Positions 5,750 through 48,703 of a stretch of DNA of 64,000 bases are shown here, piece by piece. The notes below the pieces were generated by a model that saw nothing but the letters and a program-made list of their open reading frames with translations, made no database searches and was not told where the DNA came from. The stretch comes from Rhizobium sp. NXC24 (GTDB lineage: Bacteria > Pseudomonadota > Alphaproteobacteria > Rhizobiales > Rhizobiaceae): assembly GCF_002944315.1 (NCBI RefSeq), contig NZ_CP024311.1:3974501-4038500 (forward strand), in the 5' to 3' direction. Positions within the stretch are counted from its first letter, which is position 1. Each line of letters begins with the position of its first letter. The translations under genes were made by a program, and so were the position numbers.

Positions 5750-8221
5750 TCAGACCTCCACGATCCGCCGGCTGCCAATTGCACGGATCTGGCCAGACGG
5801 GATGACATCGGCTGGAACACCGTCTCGTCGATGAAGCCTCAACCGCCGGGTCGCCCCCGGCGACAGGTGGAACCAATCGTGCTCCGCCCGATAGGCTTCG
5901 AAATCGATCTGCACCGATTGTACCAACCGGTCGCTGCGCAGATCGAGGAACCAATGACCGTCCTGCTGCGTGATGGAGGCCGTGATTTCAGCCGCATGGA
6001 AGGCTTTCGTCCTGCCCAGCGGGAAATAGAAGGCTTCTGCGATCAGCGCCCCGGTCTCGCGCGCCGTAAGACGCGCCACCGTGACGTCATGCGACGGCGG
6101 GCCGAAGCGGAAGGCATAGGTCGTGTCGAAGAAGGCGCCGAAAAGATCAGTGCAGGCTATCTTTTGCTTGCCGCGAGCCTCGATGGATAATTCCCGCTTG
6201 CCGCTGACCACGGTCTGCCGGCCGTCCCGCAGGCAGACCACATCGAGATCGAGGTCAAGGGCGACATCGCCCTCGTTGATGACATGCACATCGAGGCCAT
6301 TCGTGCCTTCATCGGTGAGCAATACCTGTACCGGCCGGAAGGCGCGGCGGAGCGCATACCATATGGGCTTCGGCTCGCCGGTGGAATCGATCACGCCCCA
6401 GCCTGGACCGGGCAGCAGATCCTGCAGGGTCCAGACGAGCGCGCCGTTGCAGCCGGAGCCTTGCCGGCGCCATTCGGCATAGGTCTCTTCCGCGACTTCG
6501 CCTGTAACGGCCCGCGACAGATCGAGATAGAGATCCGGATCCTCCCGCCGCAGCCGGTCCGGCTCGAAGCCGTAAAGTTCGCGCAAATAATGGTCGCGCA
6601 CATCCTCGAAATCCCAGGAAGCACCACGATCGCGCGGCACGCGCTCTTTCCATAGCGGGCTATGGACCGCCGGAACCGGCAGATGCCGTGCCAAAGTCCG
6701 GGCCTGCGGCACATGCGCGAAAGCCAGGCTTTCCGCAGCAAAGCGAACATCGGCACGGCGCGCATCGCCAAGCGGCCGCATATAGGCTCCGACGCCGTAA
6801 TAATGCGTCACGCCCGCATTCGGCGAAAACGGCATAGCGCCGCCCGCAGGAGAATTGACGACATAGGGAACGTCGGGCCGGATGGCCTTGACGACGGCCG
6901 GAATGATCTCCTCCACGATCGGGCTTGCCCAAAACCGCTCCGGCAATCCCAGCATCGCCGCCTGCTGATACATCTCGCTCCCACCGCAAAGCACGGCGAG
7001 CGAGGGTGACAGGCGCGTGCCGGAAAGAAGCTGCGCCGCCTCCGCTTCGACATGGGCGTTGAATGCCTTGTCGTTCTTCGGATAGTCGAAATTGGCGAAC
7101 ATGAAATCCTGCCAAACCAGCAGGCCGAGTTCGTCGCAGAGGCGGAAAAACTCCGGGGTCTCATAGGCCATGGTGCCGCCAATGCGGACCATGTTCATCC
7201 CCGCCTCCGCCGCCAGTCGCAGCCAGGGCTCATAGTCCTCGCGGCCGCCAGGCAGACGGGCAATATCCGCAGTCGTCCAGACGGCGCCGCGGCAGAAGAT
7301 ACGCTCGCCATTGACGACAAGTGCAAAATCCTTACCGTCCGCACCGCGATCGACCGCGAGCCGGCGGAAGCCGGTGCGCCCGAGCGGATATTCAACGCCA
7401 TCGATGATCAGCGCGACGTCATGAAGACAGGGCGTGCCGTGGGTGTGCGGCCACCATGGCGTCACGCCCGGGATTTTCAGGAATGCGGTGCAGTGGCCGC
7501 TATTGTCTTGCACGAATGCCTGTTCGGCGTCGCCACAACGAAGTACAATCTCGCCGACCGGTCCTTCGATGACGAGCGAGGCATAAAGCCGGCCCTCGCC
7601 GTACTCCAGCAGGTCCGGACGCAGGGAGAGATCGCGAATGACGGGGCTATGCGGACGCAAAAGCGAAATCGGCCGCCAGGGACCGACCGCGTGAGTTTCC
7701 GGGCACCAGCCGGGCATATGGCCGAGCAGCGTCGTGCGCACTAGGCGCAGCCCCTGCGGGGTGATCATCTGCGGTCGCCAGCGGGCTCTGGGGCCAGGTT
7801 CGGCAAGCCGCGGCTCCAGCGCGCGGAAGCAGAGCGCCAGCTCATCGCCGCCCAGCAGATGGACGGCGAGTTCATGCGCCTCGAACATGCTTTCGGAGAC
7901 GAGAATTTTTCTGCCGTTGAGAAAGACTTCGCAAAGCGTTGCCAACCCATCGAGCCGCAGAACCGCATTGCCAGGGTCGGCGTCGACCAATCGGCAAAAA
8001 TACCAGGCGTCCTTGTCGTTCAGCGGGTGGGGATGCTCGCGATTGAAAAGCCCGGCCTTTTCCAGCGCCCCGGCCACGGTGCCCGGCACCGATGCCGGGA
8101 TGAAACCGGCCGAAAGCGGCACATCCGAAGGCGAGGCGCAGGCGCCCGCATCCGTCAGAACCAGATTCCATCCTTCGCTCAGCAGCATCTCGCCGCCAAA
8201 GCTTGCCAAACGCCCGTGCAT
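5750..8221 (-). CDS. Glycoside hydrolase family 2, beta-mannosidase-like
   Basis: An 823-residue protein of the beta-mannosidase/exo-glucosaminidase branch of GH2. It has an N-terminal jelly-roll sugar-binding domain (about 10-180), an Ig-like domain, then a TIM barrel from about residue 295. Likely catalytic residues are acid/base E416 in 'LCGGSEMYQQ' (usually NGNNE or CGNNE) and nucleophile E497 in 'RFAAESLAFAHVP' (usually SEFGFQS). The start at 8221 follows GGGAGA; a longer frame begins inside a RIME-like repeat and is rejected. No signal peptide is seen, so it probably acts in the cytoplasm on imported glycosides. It faces the sugar transporter operon. The serine at the second N of the NNE motif makes exact specificity uncertain. 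Confidence 0.85.
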   Translation of the reverse strand: MHGRLASFGGEMLLSEGWNLVLTDAGACASPSDVPLSAGFIPASVPGTVAGALEKAGLFNREHPHPLNDKDAWYFCRLVDADPGNAVLRLDGLATLCEVFLNGRKILVSESMFEAHELAVHLLGGDELALCFRALEPRLAEPGPRARWRPQMITPQGLRLVRTTLLGHMPGWCPETHAVGPWRPISLLRPHSPVIRDLSLRPDLLEYGEGRLYASLVIEGPVGEIVLRCGDAEQAFVQDNSGHCTAFLKIPGVTPWWPHTHGTPCLHDVALIIDGVEYPLGRTGFRRLAVDRGADGKDFALVVNGERIFCRGAVWTTADIARLPGGREDYEPWLRLAAEAGMNMVRIGGTMAYETPEFFRLCDELGLLVWQDFMFANFDYPKNDKAFNAHVEAEAAQLLSGTRLSPSLAVLCGGSEMYQQAAMLGLPERFWASPIVEEIIPAVVKAIRPDVPYVVNSPAGGAMPFSPNAGVTHYYGVGAYMRPLGDARRADVRFAAESLAFAHVPQARTLARHLPVPAVHSPLWKERVPRDRGASWDFEDVRDHYLRELYGFEPDRLRREDPDLYLDLSRAVTGEVAEETYAEWRRQGSGCNGALVWTLQDLLPGPGWGVIDSTGEPKPIWYALRRAFRPVQVLLTDEGTNGLDVHVINEGDVALDLDLDVVCLRDGRQTVVSGKRELSIEARGKQKIACTDLFGAFFDTTYAFRFGPPSHDVTVARLTARETGALIAEAFYFPLGRTKAFHAAEITASITQQDGHWFLDLRSDRLVQSVQIDFEAYRAEHDWFHLSPGATRRLRLHRRDGVPADVIPSGQIRAIGSRRIVEV

Positions 8222-44062: not shown

Positions 44063-47000
44063 CTATTTCTTCATCTGCTCCTTGAGGGCAGCGAGCTTGG
44101 CGAAAGGAGAATCCGGATCGATCGGCTTTTCCTTGCGCGGCGGCTTGGCCTCGAAGCGCAGCGGCTGCGATGCGCCGCGATTGTTGCGGTCGTTCCGATC
44201 ATTGCGATCGTTACGCTCTTTCCGGTCACCCCGGTCGCCGCGATCCTGGCGGTCGTTGCGTTCGGAACGATTGCCCTGATGCTGCGGACGGCCGCCGTCG
44301 CGATTGCCGCGCGGTCCTCGGTTGTCGCCACGGGCCTCGCGCCCTTCGCGATTATCCCGGCCCTCGCGGTTGCCTTCGCCGTTCGCCTGCTGCTCGCCAC
44401 CGCCGTTGCGGCGATTACCCTGGTGACCGCGCCCCTCGCCCTGATGGCCGCGACGATCGCCATGGCCGCGTCCACCCTGGCGCTGCTGGTTATCGCTGCG
44501 TCCGCCAAGACGCCAAAGCAGAACCGGCTTCGGTTCGACCGGCTCGGTGGCGGCGACATCCGCACCCGGACCCGGCAGCTCGGCTGTAGCCTCAGAGGCT
44601 TCCATTGGCTCGGCAGCGGCGGCAGGCTCAGCAGGAGCTTGCGCTGCGGGAACCGCATCCTGTGCGGCGGTTTCGCCTTCGGTAGCCGGCTCATCGCCTG
44701 CGCCATCGGCATCGTCGTGATCGGCCTTCTCTGCGACGGTTTCCGCAACCTGCGCCGGAGCAGGTGCCGAGGAGGTATCCTGCTGCGAAAGGAAGGCTGC
44801 CGCATCTTCGGCCTTCACCGCGTCGGCCCGATAGCCGAGACCCTTCAGGATCTCTTCCATATCTTCCAGCGTTGCGCCGAGAATGGAGAGCATCGCGGTC
44901 GTCGTCGTGAAGCGGCGGCCGTCATAGGCGCCTTCCGGACGCGACGCCTGCCCAGGCTTCCACTGCAAGAGCGGACGAATAATATCCGCTAGCCGCTCGA
45001 GAATGTCGATGCGCACCGCCCGCTTGCCGAGGAAGCGGAAGCCGGCGAGCTTATAGAACATGCGCTCGAAAGTCGGATCGGTGACCACGGACGTACGGCC
45101 CGCCGCCAGAACCGGGATCAGGTCGCCATAGCCCGGCTTGTCGAGGCCGTCGTTCTTCAATGCCCAAAGCAGGGTGATGAGCTCGGCCGGAGCCGGCTTC
45201 AGCAGAGCGGGCACGAAAATGTGGTAGGCGCCGAAGCGGACACCGTAACGGCGCATCGAGGCGCGCGCGTCCTGGTCCAGCGATTTCACCTCTTCCGTGA
45301 CGTCGCGGCGGAAGAGCACGCCGAGATTTTCGACGAGCTGGAACGCCAGCCCCTTGGCAAGACCCTGCAAATCTTCGGCGCGCGACAGATCGTCGAGCGG
45401 CTTCAGCACCGTGCTGATATGATGATTCACGAAGCGCTCGATGCGCGCGGCGACATGATCACGCGCATTGCCCGTCAACTGCTCGTCTGCGAGCAGGATG
45501 ACGCGCGGACGCATGACGTGATCGCTGCCCGACAGCCGCGCCACGGGATCGCCGAGCCAACGGACGAGGCCATCCGCACTGATCGCCAAATCGCTGTTGC
45601 CTGCCGCATGGATACGGGCGGCGCGCGCCTCGAATTCCAGCGCCAGCGCCTTCTGCGAGGCCGTCTGGACAGCCTTGGCGTCCGGCCCCTCGGTTCCCGC
45701 GATAGGCGTGAACCGGAATCCGGTCAACTGTCCCACATGATGCCCCTCAACGAAGACATCCCCATTCACACTGATTTCAGCTTCCAGCATCGCATTCTCT
45801 CTCAGGCGCTTCATGAGCACAGATGTCCTGCGATCAACAAAGCGTTTCGTCAACCTCTCATGTAACGCGTCAGACAATCGATCTTCGATTTCCCGCGTCT
45901 TTTCTTGCCAGTGTGTCGGATCGGCAAGCCAACCGGGCCGGTTCGACACATAGGTCCAAGTCCTTATCTGCGCGATTCGCGCCGAAAGCGTGTCGATCTC
46001 ACCGTCCGTCCGATCGGCGCGATGCACCTGCTCGGCGAGGAAGTCCTCTTTTACCGTGCCATAGCGCACAAGGTCGGAAAAGAGGGTGGCGATAAGATCG
46101 GCATGCTGGGCGGGCGTAATCCGCCGATAATCCGGAAGCGCGCAGGCTTCCCATAATTTTTCGACCCGCGCCGGATTATTGGCGAGATCGGAAATCTCCA
46201 GATCGCGCGACAGATATTCCAGCGCCTGCTGATCGACCGCCGGCAGTGCCCGCGTCAAGCCCTGTACGCGCGGTGCGCTCTCGAGGCTCGCGCGCAGCGA
46301 AGCGATCGAGGAGAAATCGAATTCCTTGGTTCGCCATTGTAGCACTTTAACCGTATCGAACTCGTGACCCTCAATGCGCCGTACCAATTCGTCGTCGAAG
46401 GGATCCACCTGGCCCGTTACGCCAAAAGTGCCGTCCTTCAGATGACGACCGGCGCGGCCGGCGACCTGGCCGAGTTCGCCCGGATTGAGATTGCGGAACT
46501 GATAGCCGTCAAACTTGCGATCCTGGGCAAAGGCGACGTGATCGACATCCAGATTGAGCCCCATGCCGATCGCATCGGTCGCCACGAGATATTCGACATC
46601 GCCGGCCTGATAGAGCGCGACCTGTGCGTTGCGGGTACGCGGGCTGAGCGCGCCGAGGACAACGGCGGCACCGCCGCGCTGGCGACGGATGAGTTCGGCG
46701 ATGGCATAGACTTCGTCGGCGGAGAAGGCGACGATCGCTGTGCGCTGCGGCAGGCGGGTGATCTTCTTCTGTCCGGCATAGAAGAGATGCGACAGCCGCG
46801 GCCGCTCAACGACGGTGATCCCCGGCAGGAGCTGCTCAAGGATCGGCCGCATCGTGCCGGCGCCGAGCAGCAGGGTCTCGTCCCGCCCGCGCAAATGCAG
46901 GATACGGTCGGTGAAGATATGGCCGCGCTCCAGATCGCCGGCGAGCTGCACTTCATCGATCGCGACGAAAGAGGCCCGCGTCTCACGCGGCATCGCTTCG

Positions 47001-47260
47001 ACGGTGCAGACGGAATAGCGCGCATTGGGCGGCGAGATCTTTTCTTCGCCGGTGACCAGCGCGACATACTGAGCCCCGACCTTCTCGACGACACGCGTAT
47101 AGACCTCGCGCGCCAAGAGCCGCAGCGGCAGGCCGATGACGCCATTGCCGTGCGCCACCATGCGCTCGATGGCATAATGAGTCTTGCCGGTATTGGTGGG
47201 TCCGAGCACCGCGGTCACGCCGCGTCCGCTCAGGATCATTGGCTGCGAAGTCTGAGTCAT
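44063..47260 (-). CDS. SUV3-like DExH RNA helicase with long disordered tail
   Basis: A 1065-residue superfamily 2 helicase. Motif I is 'GPTNTGKTHYAIERM', motif II is 'DEVQ' in 'SFVAIDEVQLAGDLERGH', motif VI is 'GQVAGRAGRH'; this resembles mitochondrial SUV3. From about residue 790 the protein is acidic and alanine-rich, then (about 930-1030) strongly rich in G, R, N, D and Q with 'NDRNDRNDRN'-like repeats, ending in a short conserved 'PIDPDSPFAKLAALKEQMKK'. The tail probably binds RNA or ribosomes and is disordered. ATG 47260 is preferred; ATG 47272 is also open. It shares an operon with the S4 protein. Confidence 0.92.
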   Translation of the reverse strand: MTQTSQPMILSGRGVTAVLGPTNTGKTHYAIERMVAHGNGVIGLPLRLLAREVYTRVVEKVGAQYVALVTGEEKISPPNARYSVCTVEAMPRETRASFVAIDEVQLAGDLERGHIFTDRILHLRGRDETLLLGAGTMRPILEQLLPGITVVERPRLSHLFYAGQKKITRLPQRTAIVAFSADEVYAIAELIRRQRGGAAVVLGALSPRTRNAQVALYQAGDVEYLVATDAIGMGLNLDVDHVAFAQDRKFDGYQFRNLNPGELGQVAGRAGRHLKDGTFGVTGQVDPFDDELVRRIEGHEFDTVKVLQWRTKEFDFSSIASLRASLESAPRVQGLTRALPAVDQQALEYLSRDLEISDLANNPARVEKLWEACALPDYRRITPAQHADLIATLFSDLVRYGTVKEDFLAEQVHRADRTDGEIDTLSARIAQIRTWTYVSNRPGWLADPTHWQEKTREIEDRLSDALHERLTKRFVDRRTSVLMKRLRENAMLEAEISVNGDVFVEGHHVGQLTGFRFTPIAGTEGPDAKAVQTASQKALALEFEARAARIHAAGNSDLAISADGLVRWLGDPVARLSGSDHVMRPRVILLADEQLTGNARDHVAARIERFVNHHISTVLKPLDDLSRAEDLQGLAKGLAFQLVENLGVLFRRDVTEEVKSLDQDARASMRRYGVRFGAYHIFVPALLKPAPAELITLLWALKNDGLDKPGYGDLIPVLAAGRTSVVTDPTFERMFYKLAGFRFLGKRAVRIDILERLADIIRPLLQWKPGQASRPEGAYDGRRFTTTTAMLSILGATLEDMEEILKGLGYRADAVKAEDAAAFLSQQDTSSAPAPAQVAETVAEKADHDDADGAGDEPATEGETAAQDAVPAAQAPAEPAAAAEPMEASEATAELPGPGADVAATEPVEPKPVLLWRLGGRSDNQQRQGGRGHGDRRGHQGEGRGHQGNRRNGGGEQQANGEGNREGRDNREGREARGDNRGPRGNRDGGRPQHQGNRSERNDRQDRGDRGDRKERNDRNDRNDRNNRGASQPLRFEAKPPRKEKPIDPDSPFAKLAALKEQMKK

Positions 47261-47468
47261 AGGTCCATGCATGGGCGAGAAACCACTGTCTTCCGATCAG
47301 CAAGGTCCCCAGGGAAGAGAAGAAGAGATGACGACCATATGTGACAAAGGCAAGACCTGAATGAAAAAACAACGGCTAGAATATGCGATTTTATCTTTGG
47401 CCGTCTCAACCGAAAGCTACATTCTCTCTGCATCCAAAACGAGTCCGGGTGAGTCGAGAACAGCTTGA

Positions 47469-47520
47469 GAACGAATCGGCGACGAATCGCTGACTCCGCC
47501 CTGTTCCCTTTGTGTTCACC
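47469..47520 (+). repeat. Iteron repeat copy 1
   Basis: ACGAATCGGCG (47471-47481) is followed directly by ACGAATCGCTG (47482-47492), then ACTCC and, 18 bases on, TGTGTTCACC. Three GANTC sites fall within 26 bases. Confidence 0.75.
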
Positions 47521-47711
47521 ACTATATGGATTTCGATTTACAAACCGCCACCAGATAGTGAATCGCATTGGGACTCCTTTTTCACGTGAATCAGGAGCCA
47601 TCACGCGAATCCGGCGAACCAGCCTTCCCGTTTGGAAACATGGTTAACCATCTGTAAATTCCGCAATTTTCCGAGATAAATATCGAGAACGGCTCTGAGT
47701 TAAGATTCGGG

Positions 47712-47779
47712 CCAAAGCCGGAACGAATCGGCGACGAATCGCTGACTTTCCACAATTCCGCATTTGTTCTCCACAACAT
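47712..47779 (+). repeat. Iteron repeat copy 2
   Basis: CCAAAGCCGGA precedes ACGAATCGGCG (47723-47733) and ACGAATCGCTG (47734-47744). The unit ends with TTTGTTCTCCACAACAT (47763-47779), whose TTCTCCACA is one base from a DnaA box. Confidence 0.75.
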
Positions 47780-47927
47780 CTAGTGCCTTCTCCGGCGAAA
47801 TGCCCAGGACTCTGCAGGGTTGAAGCGCCAAATCACGTCGAATCGTGGATTGCAATTAACTTTTGAGCGAAACGTAATATGAAAAGTCCATAATCTCTCG
47901 CATTGATTGCAATCGTTAACTTTCCGA

Positions 47928-47990
47928 CCAAAGCCGGAACGAATCGGCGACGAATCGCTGATTATGTCGTGTACTGTATTTGTTCACGGC
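47928..47990 (+). repeat. Iteron repeat copy 3
   Basis: CCAAAGCCGGA precedes ACGAATCGGCG (47939-47949) and ACGAATCGCTG (47950-47960), identical to copy 2 across 32 bases. TTTGTTCACGGC follows at 47979-47990. Confidence 0.75.
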
Positions 47991-48171
47991 TAGATATAGC
48001 GTTCGGAGGGGAAGCTCATCCAAAGGGAGGATGATGTGACGATATGGGTAGCGAAAAAATTCGCCGGCATTAACCATTTCGACCGAGGAATTACCACTTT
48101 CCGGCGATAAGGCCTAAACCTTCCTCGCCGAAAGGGGTAGGTTCTCCGAGGCCACAATCCCTGCCGCCGTT

Positions 48172-48252
48172 AACCAAAGCCCAAATACAGAACGAATCGC
48201 TGACGAATCACGGACAAGCTCGCTTTCCCGTTTCGTTCACCGCAACATATTG
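48172..48252 (+). repeat. Iteron repeat copy 4, diverged
   Basis: CCAAAGCCC lies upstream. The pair is ACGAATCGCTG (48192-48202) then ACGAATCACGG (48203-48213), so the order of the words differs from other copies. It ends with TTTCGTTCACCGCAACATAT, matching the tail of copy 2. Confidence 0.7.
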
Positions 48253-48379
48253 TATTTTAAATTGTTTTTAACCATATCCCGCGGTCGTCGGCGGGTATTT
48301 TCTTGCGCAGCTCGCAGCCGGGCATTAACCTTTGCCCGGGGCATGCCGGCTCATCTTCATGTCTTGTTATTTCTGAGCC

Positions 48380-48405
48380 GGAACAATTTCTCGTGAAATA
48401 AGTTT
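48380..48405 (+). promoter_or_regulatory. Candidate EcfG/RpoE2 promoter of the DUF3309 gene
   Basis: GGAAC at 48380-48384 is followed after 18 bases by TT in AAGTTTC, matching GGAAC-N18-TT of the alphaproteobacterial general stress sigma factor. It lies about 145 bases upstream of the DUF3309 start, a family often found in stress regulons. Confidence 0.45.
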
Positions 48406-48547
48406 CTATCGACAGCGGCATTGGTGCGCCCTCATTCTCGAGGAGTGGATAAGGACGCATCGGCACTTGTATCTAGGCGCATCTTATCCGCTTGCGTGAG
48501 GTCGCTCTGGCGGGATGCTCTAGGCGCTGGACGCGGAGGAATACGCT

Positions 48548-48703
48548 ATGCTTGGTACAATATTGCTCGTGATTTTGATTCTGCTGCTGATCGGAGCGCT
48601 CCCGAACTGGGGTTACAGCCGAGGTTGGGGATATGGTCCATCAGGTGGTCTCGGACTAGTTCTCGTCATCGTTCTTATTCTGCTATTGATGGGCCGGATC
48701 TGA
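48548..48703 (+). CDS. DUF3309 family tiny membrane protein
   Basis: A 51-residue protein behind GGAGGAA. It has the family pattern of two hydrophobic stretches around 'GALPNWGYSRGWGYGPSGG', ending 'LILLLMGRI'. The whole protein is one short hairpin-like membrane polypeptide. Function is unknown; relatives are common in Rhizobiales and often follow stress promoters, as the upstream GGAAC site suggests here. Confidence 0.85.
   Translation: MLGTILLVILILLLIGALPNWGYSRGWGYGPSGGLGLVLVIVLILLLMGRI

Follow-up and report, generated by a model that had tools for sequence, protein, structure and literature searches.

A modular DNA array beside mgpS as a candidate cell-cycle-linked cis-element of alphaproteobacterial chromosomes

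Four modules between mgpS and a DUF3309 gene

The window analysed here is a 64,000-nt stretch (C1:3974501-4038500) of the 7.3-Mb genome of Rhizobium sp. NXC24. Within it, a 1,275-bp gap (47273..48547) separates a leftward helicase gene (44063..47272, minus strand, ATG at 47272) from a rightward open reading frame (48548..48703, plus strand, ATG at 48548). The initial annotation had drawn the gene-free region from 47261; that start lies 12 bases inside the helicase gene, and from 47273 onwards the region indeed holds no gene. The left-hand gene encodes a SUV3-type DEXQ helicase (Pfam PF22527 and PF00271) and is presumably the mgpS ortholog, an assignment that we base on gene order. The name mgpS has been given to Sinorhizobium meliloti SMc03877 (accessible part of PMC4941405). 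The right-hand gene encodes a small DUF3309 protein (Pfam PF11752), which lies to the right here and in relatives within the genus but not in most other genera.

The gap carries four copies of the double word ACGAATC-N4-ACGAATC, starting at 47471, 47723, 47939 and 48192. Their spacing of 252, 216 and 253 bp agrees with the earlier description of double 11-bp words every 216–253 bases; the repeated units themselves, at ~84 bp, are larger than the double words first noted. All four modules lie on the plus strand and are drawn out to the 84 positions of the sequence model: module 1 at 47453..47536 (65.5 bits over model positions 5–76), module 2 at 47705..47788 (70.5 bits, positions 2–81), module 3 at 47921..48004 (68.8 bits, positions 3–82) and module 4, the last, at 48174..48257 (65.2 bits, positions 6–83). 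After module 4 come the AT-rich stretch originally described as ending the array, and TTAACCATA. Downstream of module 1, a second conserved word (47549..47564, plus strand) stands ~31 bp past the module's own CTAnAT word; its consensus is CACCAnATGCTGAATC in arrays with 282–284-bp spacing, where this word and two GTTAAC recur between modules 1 and 2 (21 of 39 spacers kept after thinning). On the mgpS side of the gap, a leader of ~100 bp (47273-47372, minus strand) is conserved at 0.88–0.99 per 20 bp among seven genus members, includes CTTGCCTTTGTCACATATGGTCGTC and in part resembles the right half of the module. At the opposite end, upstream of DUF3309, lies a GGAAC-containing conserved stretch (48373-48400) that we assume could be a general-stress (EcfG-type) promoter.

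Module anatomy was derived from 83 listed modules of genus and family loci, 62 of them aligned, and the listing pattern demanded two GANTC sites. On the left, words follow one another at 11-bp steps, from GnnC...GAACGAATC through GACGAATC to GAC(TC); on the right, past a variable stretch, come nTTC, TTTGTTCAC and CwAnATnTnG. As read off the alignments, the outer words are a dyad of GAAC-N7-GAAC (left) and nTTC-N7-GTTC (right). Module 1 has both outer words exact (GAAC-N7-GAAC at 47458 and GTTC-N7-GTTC at 47503), and the TTTGTTC tails that had been seen to recur after the iterons belong to the module. GTTC-N7-GTTC is also the LexA SOS operator. We rejected LexA boxes as an identity for the modules because the exact box is not conserved: among 361 distinct modules the left outer word is exact in 191, the right in 44 and both in only 26. 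The recA promoters taken for calibration of LexA contained such a word in only 3 of 15 cases, too few to calibrate.

Dimeric proteins, those of the OmpR type among them, recognise words that are spaced by one helical turn. Half-sites at this spacing liken the module to PhoB/OmpR-type direct repeats (7 bp + 4 bp; for CenR, the accessible parts of PMC9275681 and PMC9561847), from which it differs in being a 60-bp dyad of several words. In its own genome the iteron pattern occurs at one locus only, with zero matches for the reversed control, and a search with the module model for a regulon elsewhere in that genome returned nothing below E 0.04. No period stands out in the module-to-module spacing (R ≤ 0.29).

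A structured non-coding RNA had also been suggested, and the modules could in principle be promoters or RNA motifs of tandem small-RNA genes or of an mgpS RNA leader. The CTAnAT word, which we take to resemble a rhizobial −10, has a fixed place in each module, and the arms GAACGAA and TTYGTTC could pair (94.4% of cells). Compensatory changes were found, however, at none of five predicted pairs in 62 modules and at none of seven GAACGAA/TTYGTTC arm pairs in 46 diverse modules, where the covariation score was 0.085 against 0.103 for shuffles. Past the modules, little is conserved beyond a few short words; simple terminators occur in only 4 of 239 spacers, and the array has no Rfam match. A structured RNA was therefore rejected, small-RNA genes or an RNA leader are very improbable, and the absent covariation counts in favour of an element that acts as DNA.

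Conservation and chromosomal position of the array

Comparison with relatives, the check proposed at the outset, carried the element far beyond Rhizobium, into the family, the order and some of the class. The exact iteron pattern is present in 19 of 19 same-genus genomes (own genome included) and in none of the 12 genomes that represent other families in the order. With the sequence model, modules were detected in 112 of 151 genomes of the family (79 of 106 genera), in 103 of 150 of the order (61 of 86 genera) and in 18 of 192 of the class, 15 of them outside the order; the order and class searches used stricter filters, by which weak matches were lost. The remaining 39 of the 151 family genomes gave no match, and 12 of these were still empty when rescanned with laxer filters. 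Carriers among the matches listed include Rhizobium, S. meliloti 4H41, S. fredii, Mesorhizobium, Hoeflea, Ciceribacter, Brucella oryzae and Bartonella apis.

For comparison of loci, we used a set of at least 117 chosen by the exact iteron pattern. The mgpS start is contained in 113 of these, and in the other 4 the sequence piece ends ~250 bp or less from a module. Two sets are independent of this choice, namely the model matches and the 30 best mgpS matches, and 24 of the latter have a module. Two modules per locus are commonest (69 of 113), followed by one (20), three (15) and four (9). Across seven genus-level arrays, the best-conserved islands are the modules, the mgpS leader and the stretch before DUF3309; the DNA between modules diverges, with 47813-47872 still at 0.69–0.80. 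On these sequence comparisons, we regard this as a real, deeply conserved cis-element of alphaproteobacterial chromosomes that has grown into arrays in Rhizobiales. It is apparently undescribed in the open-access literature.

An origin in a phage or plasmid element was considered and discarded. Eight viral 17-mer matches proved to be without the module's right half, and a 111-base query holding module 2, which is blind to diverged modules, found no phage match and a single plasmid match. That match is the same mgpS-array-DUF3309-phb block, on the 489-kb plasmid p3 of Rhizobium sp. NLR16a (NZ_CP072868.1, locus L347, 291471-297505). No feature is annotated in its equivalent gap, in a gene table made up of proteins only.

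In its own genome the array lies ~139 kb from hemE. Among the 19 genomes that carry the array and have it on one contig with hemE, the distance is 92–482 kb in 18, the exception being G061 at ~809 kb. In two array-free genomes (G158 and G151) mgpS is also within ~430 kb of hemE, so the near-origin position may reflect inherited gene order rather than selection. hemE stands at the end of contig C1; sampled GC skew goes from negative before this end to weakly positive after it, and 165 bp at C1:143-307 hold one exact and three one-mismatch DnaA boxes. We infer that the main origin lies beside hemE. Mapping of GC skew, likewise proposed initially, gave no switch at the array. Together, the skew and the DnaA-box cluster ~139 kb away rule out the array as the main chromosomal origin.

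Of the replication-type iteron array first suggested, the architecture of 11-bp-phased words thus stands and the role of main origin does not. The nearest such systems are ori2 of Vibrio cholerae and P1-type iterons, which have methylation sites inside the iterons; the array resembles them in its 11-bp-phased direct words, most with an adenine-methylation site. Unlike them, it has no adjacent initiator gene, its neighbours being mgpS and the DUF3309/phb genes, and no skew switch; the likely oriC is elsewhere, and the array is also found in genomes assembled as a single contig.

A protein brought in by the modules might instead anchor or loop the origin-proximal chromosome or load factors onto it, in the manner of a centromere or of RacA sites. 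Multiple phased sites with variable spacing at a single locus would suit a chromosome-organising or segregation site, as would the lone module of genome G301 (locus L334, 4908-4963), since a ParA-family gene (7179-7976) ends ~2.2 kb away from it. The exact 16-bp parS word is absent from the array, however, and lies 118–351 kb away in the 11 genomes with both on one contig; the CcrM and CtrA content would also go unexplained. We consider such a site unlikely.

CcrM, CtrA and DnaA words in and around the modules

CcrM methylates GANTC late in the cell cycle, and CtrA binds TTAA-type words. The initial annotation had counted at least 17 GANTC sites here, five times chance. We found 18, and the cluster is denser than that estimate: all GANTC sites of 47273-48548 fit one 770-bp stretch (47441..48209), with eight inside the double words, against a window mean of 1.15 and a next-best stretch of 4, an excess of ~15-fold over the window mean. 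The array tops 464 kb (400 kb sampled plus the window, ~11% of contig C1) for both types of word, with 18 GANTC and 11 TTAAC/GTTAA words per kb; elsewhere in these 464 kb, a 1-kb stretch has at most 10 GANTC and at most 8 TTAAC/GTTAA words.

The CtrA-type half-site reported three times was recovered as TTAACCAT at 47644, 48070 and 48268, and a single reverse copy is present at 47640. GTTAAC half-sites stand at 47643..47648, at 47915..47920 directly before module 3 and at 48169..48174 directly before module 4. A full CtrA-type site, TAA-N7-TTAAC, follows module 4 (48258..48272, plus strand); this is the CtrA motif of S. meliloti in the accessible part of PMC3616915. A near-DnaA word, TTCTCCACA, lies at 47767, in line with the tail originally described as differing by one base from a DnaA box. 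This array holds no exact DnaA box and two one-mismatch words.

The same words are enriched across loci. In inter-module DNA of 82 loci kept after thinning the 113, GANTC occurs 267 times against 100.3 by first-order expectation (2.7-fold), the highest enrichment of 16 palindromic pentamers, and GTTAAC 152 times against 4.6 (33-fold). In the 113 unthinned arrays there are 735 TTAAC against 104 expected, and full TAA-N7-TTAAC sites number 9 against 1.0, so that the CtrA words are mostly half-sites. Eight loci at the same place but without modules are near background, at 1.88 GANTC and 0.62 TTAAC per kb, although one of them (L096) has three of each; 40 module loci from distinct genomes, some picked partly for having arrays, average 11.25 and 5.84.

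The enrichment has exceptions. TTAAC is entirely absent from 800 bp in 13 of the 40 module loci, and the array of S. meliloti 4H41 has 14 GANTC in 760 bp and only one TTAAC. GANTC is present in 63 of 78 first words and 72 of 78 second words of the 40 module loci; outside the words it is missing from 9 of 113 loci. Outside the order, GANTC mostly numbers 4–6 per 1.4 kb, with up to 8 at one locus and 0 at another. The module must serve some purpose besides methylation, since GANTC is absent from 15 of 78 first and 6 of 78 second words and, outside the words, from 9 loci, and since its enrichment is weak beyond the order.

A DnaA box, TTATCCAC, is present in 25 of the 113 loci, always after the last module, and many of these are related Mesorhizobium-type loci. 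The 113 unthinned arrays hold 52 words within one mismatch of the box where 10.4 would be expected, and 25 of the 52 lie inside modules. A DnaA-titration locus of the datA/DARS type would have several boxes, which these arrays do not show. In Escherichia coli, datA and DARS are non-coding DNA outside oriC with regulator sites, which the array resembles; it departs from them in that most arrays have no good DnaA box, the main modules are an unrelated word and CcrM and CtrA words take the place of boxes.

Comparable segments rich in such words are known. The array shares with the Caulobacter origin Cori (accessible parts of PMC4433202 and PMC8959179) the combination of CtrA-type words with GANTC, and sometimes with DnaA boxes, within a single non-coding segment; unlike Cori, it is not at hemE, has mostly half-sites and is dominated by the new module. 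The gcrA promoter of Agrobacterium tumefaciens, with 6 GANTC in 250 bp in the portion of PMC11514494 at hand, is similar as CcrM-site-rich regulatory DNA and different in having a known target gene and fewer reported sites, in a comparison by GANTC content only. In Ensifer, GANTC is about two-fold commoner in intergenic than in coding DNA (PMC8725594, accessible part). At the likely oriC, no TTAAC occurs in C1:1-2300, and according to the accessible part of PMC4433202 CtrA is not at the S. meliloti origin. The cell-cycle control hub proposed initially is a candidate reading that suits the words found here: GANTC, GTTAAC and, in part of the genera, a DnaA box.

Possible roles: an mgpS operator or an autonomous array

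The tie to mgpS is close. In all 113 readable family loci, the first module lies 88–288 bp from the mgpS start, in one orientation and pointing away from the gene. Modules adjoin mgpS divergently in 19 of 20 order loci (17 families) and in 11 of the 13 loci examined among the 15 outside the order, where one match per genome is the rule; gene context was counted for loci that were read only. An ungapped cross-genus comparison upstream of mgpS found nothing conserved apart from the modules. Of the 64 two-module loci that are readable on the far side, 56 have the 3′ end of phbB or phbA there, which leaves no rightward gene to be controlled. All this is what one would expect if the modules were an operator or promoter array of mgpS, to which a protein that activates or represses the helicase gene would bind; tandem amplification would have taken place in Rhizobiales, and CcrM and CtrA would contribute cell-cycle timing.

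Other features fit such an operator poorly. No conserved −35 hexamer was found in the array, promoter-like sites are not above chance, and the genus has the conserved 100-bp mgpS leader as a separate element. Up to five modules extend over more than 1 kb in G072, and modules far from mgpS are equally well conserved: the seven that lie more than 1 kb away (in six loci, three of the seven at only 1.06–1.28 kb) have a median of 72.0 bits, compared with 66.2 for 232 nearer ones.

Modules also persist where mgpS is elsewhere or missing. A rearrangement in G083 has separated two modules by 15 kb; one is next to mgpS and the other, oppositely oriented, next to phbB. In G191, G308 and G313, modules are found both by mgpS and by genes that flank mgpS elsewhere (rpmB/Vut_1 or a GST gene), and we read these as split arrays. 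The module of G481 is 4.7 kb from mgpS, and the two modules of G034 are on a different contig from an mgpS remnant. In G301 the module lies by a DUF3108 gene with no mgpS within the 10 kb read, the loci read of its family (f47) do not adjoin mgpS, and the related G246 has four modules away from mgpS. G082 has one module, upstream of pmbA, in a genome in which mgpS was not found. Since modules survive when parted from mgpS, we prefer an autonomous site to a pure mgpS operator, a preference that is only moderate because adjacency to mgpS is otherwise nearly absolute. The operator is the main alternative, though a less probable one.

Our leading interpretation, to which we assign a probability of roughly 45%, is that the array is an autonomous cis-acting DNA element at which proteins assemble into a nucleoprotein complex linked to the CcrM/CtrA cell cycle. 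It draws support from the anatomy, conservation, motif enrichment, near-origin location and persistence away from mgpS, and from the module-free loci at the same place, which show no enrichment. Against it count the always divergent adjacency to mgpS, which looks like an operator, the 39 family genomes without a match, and the fading of GANTC outside the order together with the loci that have no GANTC outside the words or no TTAAC.

In this autonomous array, each ~84-bp module would be a large putative binding site with words symmetric about its centre. Its left side has GAAC-type words spaced by one helical turn, with CGAATC/GACTC words that keep the same phase, and its right side an inverted nTTC-N7-GTTC. 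A putative DNA-binding protein, probably of several subunits, may nucleate on each module. Between modules would lie the CtrA-type GTTAAC half-sites and CcrM GANTC sites, with a DnaA box after the last module in some genera. A near-origin locus would be copied early and would then stay hemimethylated until CcrM acts late in the cycle, and methylation state together with CtrA binding could report the stage of the cell cycle. The target of the complex might be the initiation of replication or progress through the cell cycle, and mgpS could be a further target.

Conserved, close to the origin and denser in GANTC and TTAAC than any other part of the 464 kb examined, the array is a concrete candidate for CtrA-linked control; C1:1-2300, at the likely oriC, has no TTAAC. 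Even if it controlled mgpS only, it would be a large and old regulatory element with a putative cognate protein. A bolder proposal, and in our estimate a long shot, makes the array the missing element with which CtrA and CcrM hold back the initiation of replication in Rhizobiales. It would then be a site of licensing or sequestration that lies away from oriC, at which a putative reader would sense methylation of the phased GANTC words, as an alphaproteobacterial counterpart of SeqA/datA or crtS control. The single TTAAC in the S. meliloti 4H41 array counts against this proposal.

Last, we record two observations on small genomes. In six of them (G098, G117, G034, G102, G119 and G136), only the later part of mgpS matches, from query residue 445 or beyond, and some of these partial copies contain stops; the helicase domain seems to have been lost from mgpS there. 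In G034, the segment between the two modules (locus L254 on contig C12, 10066-11124) holds a frame of repeated NSPRAKAGGLK peptide and looks CRISPR-like.
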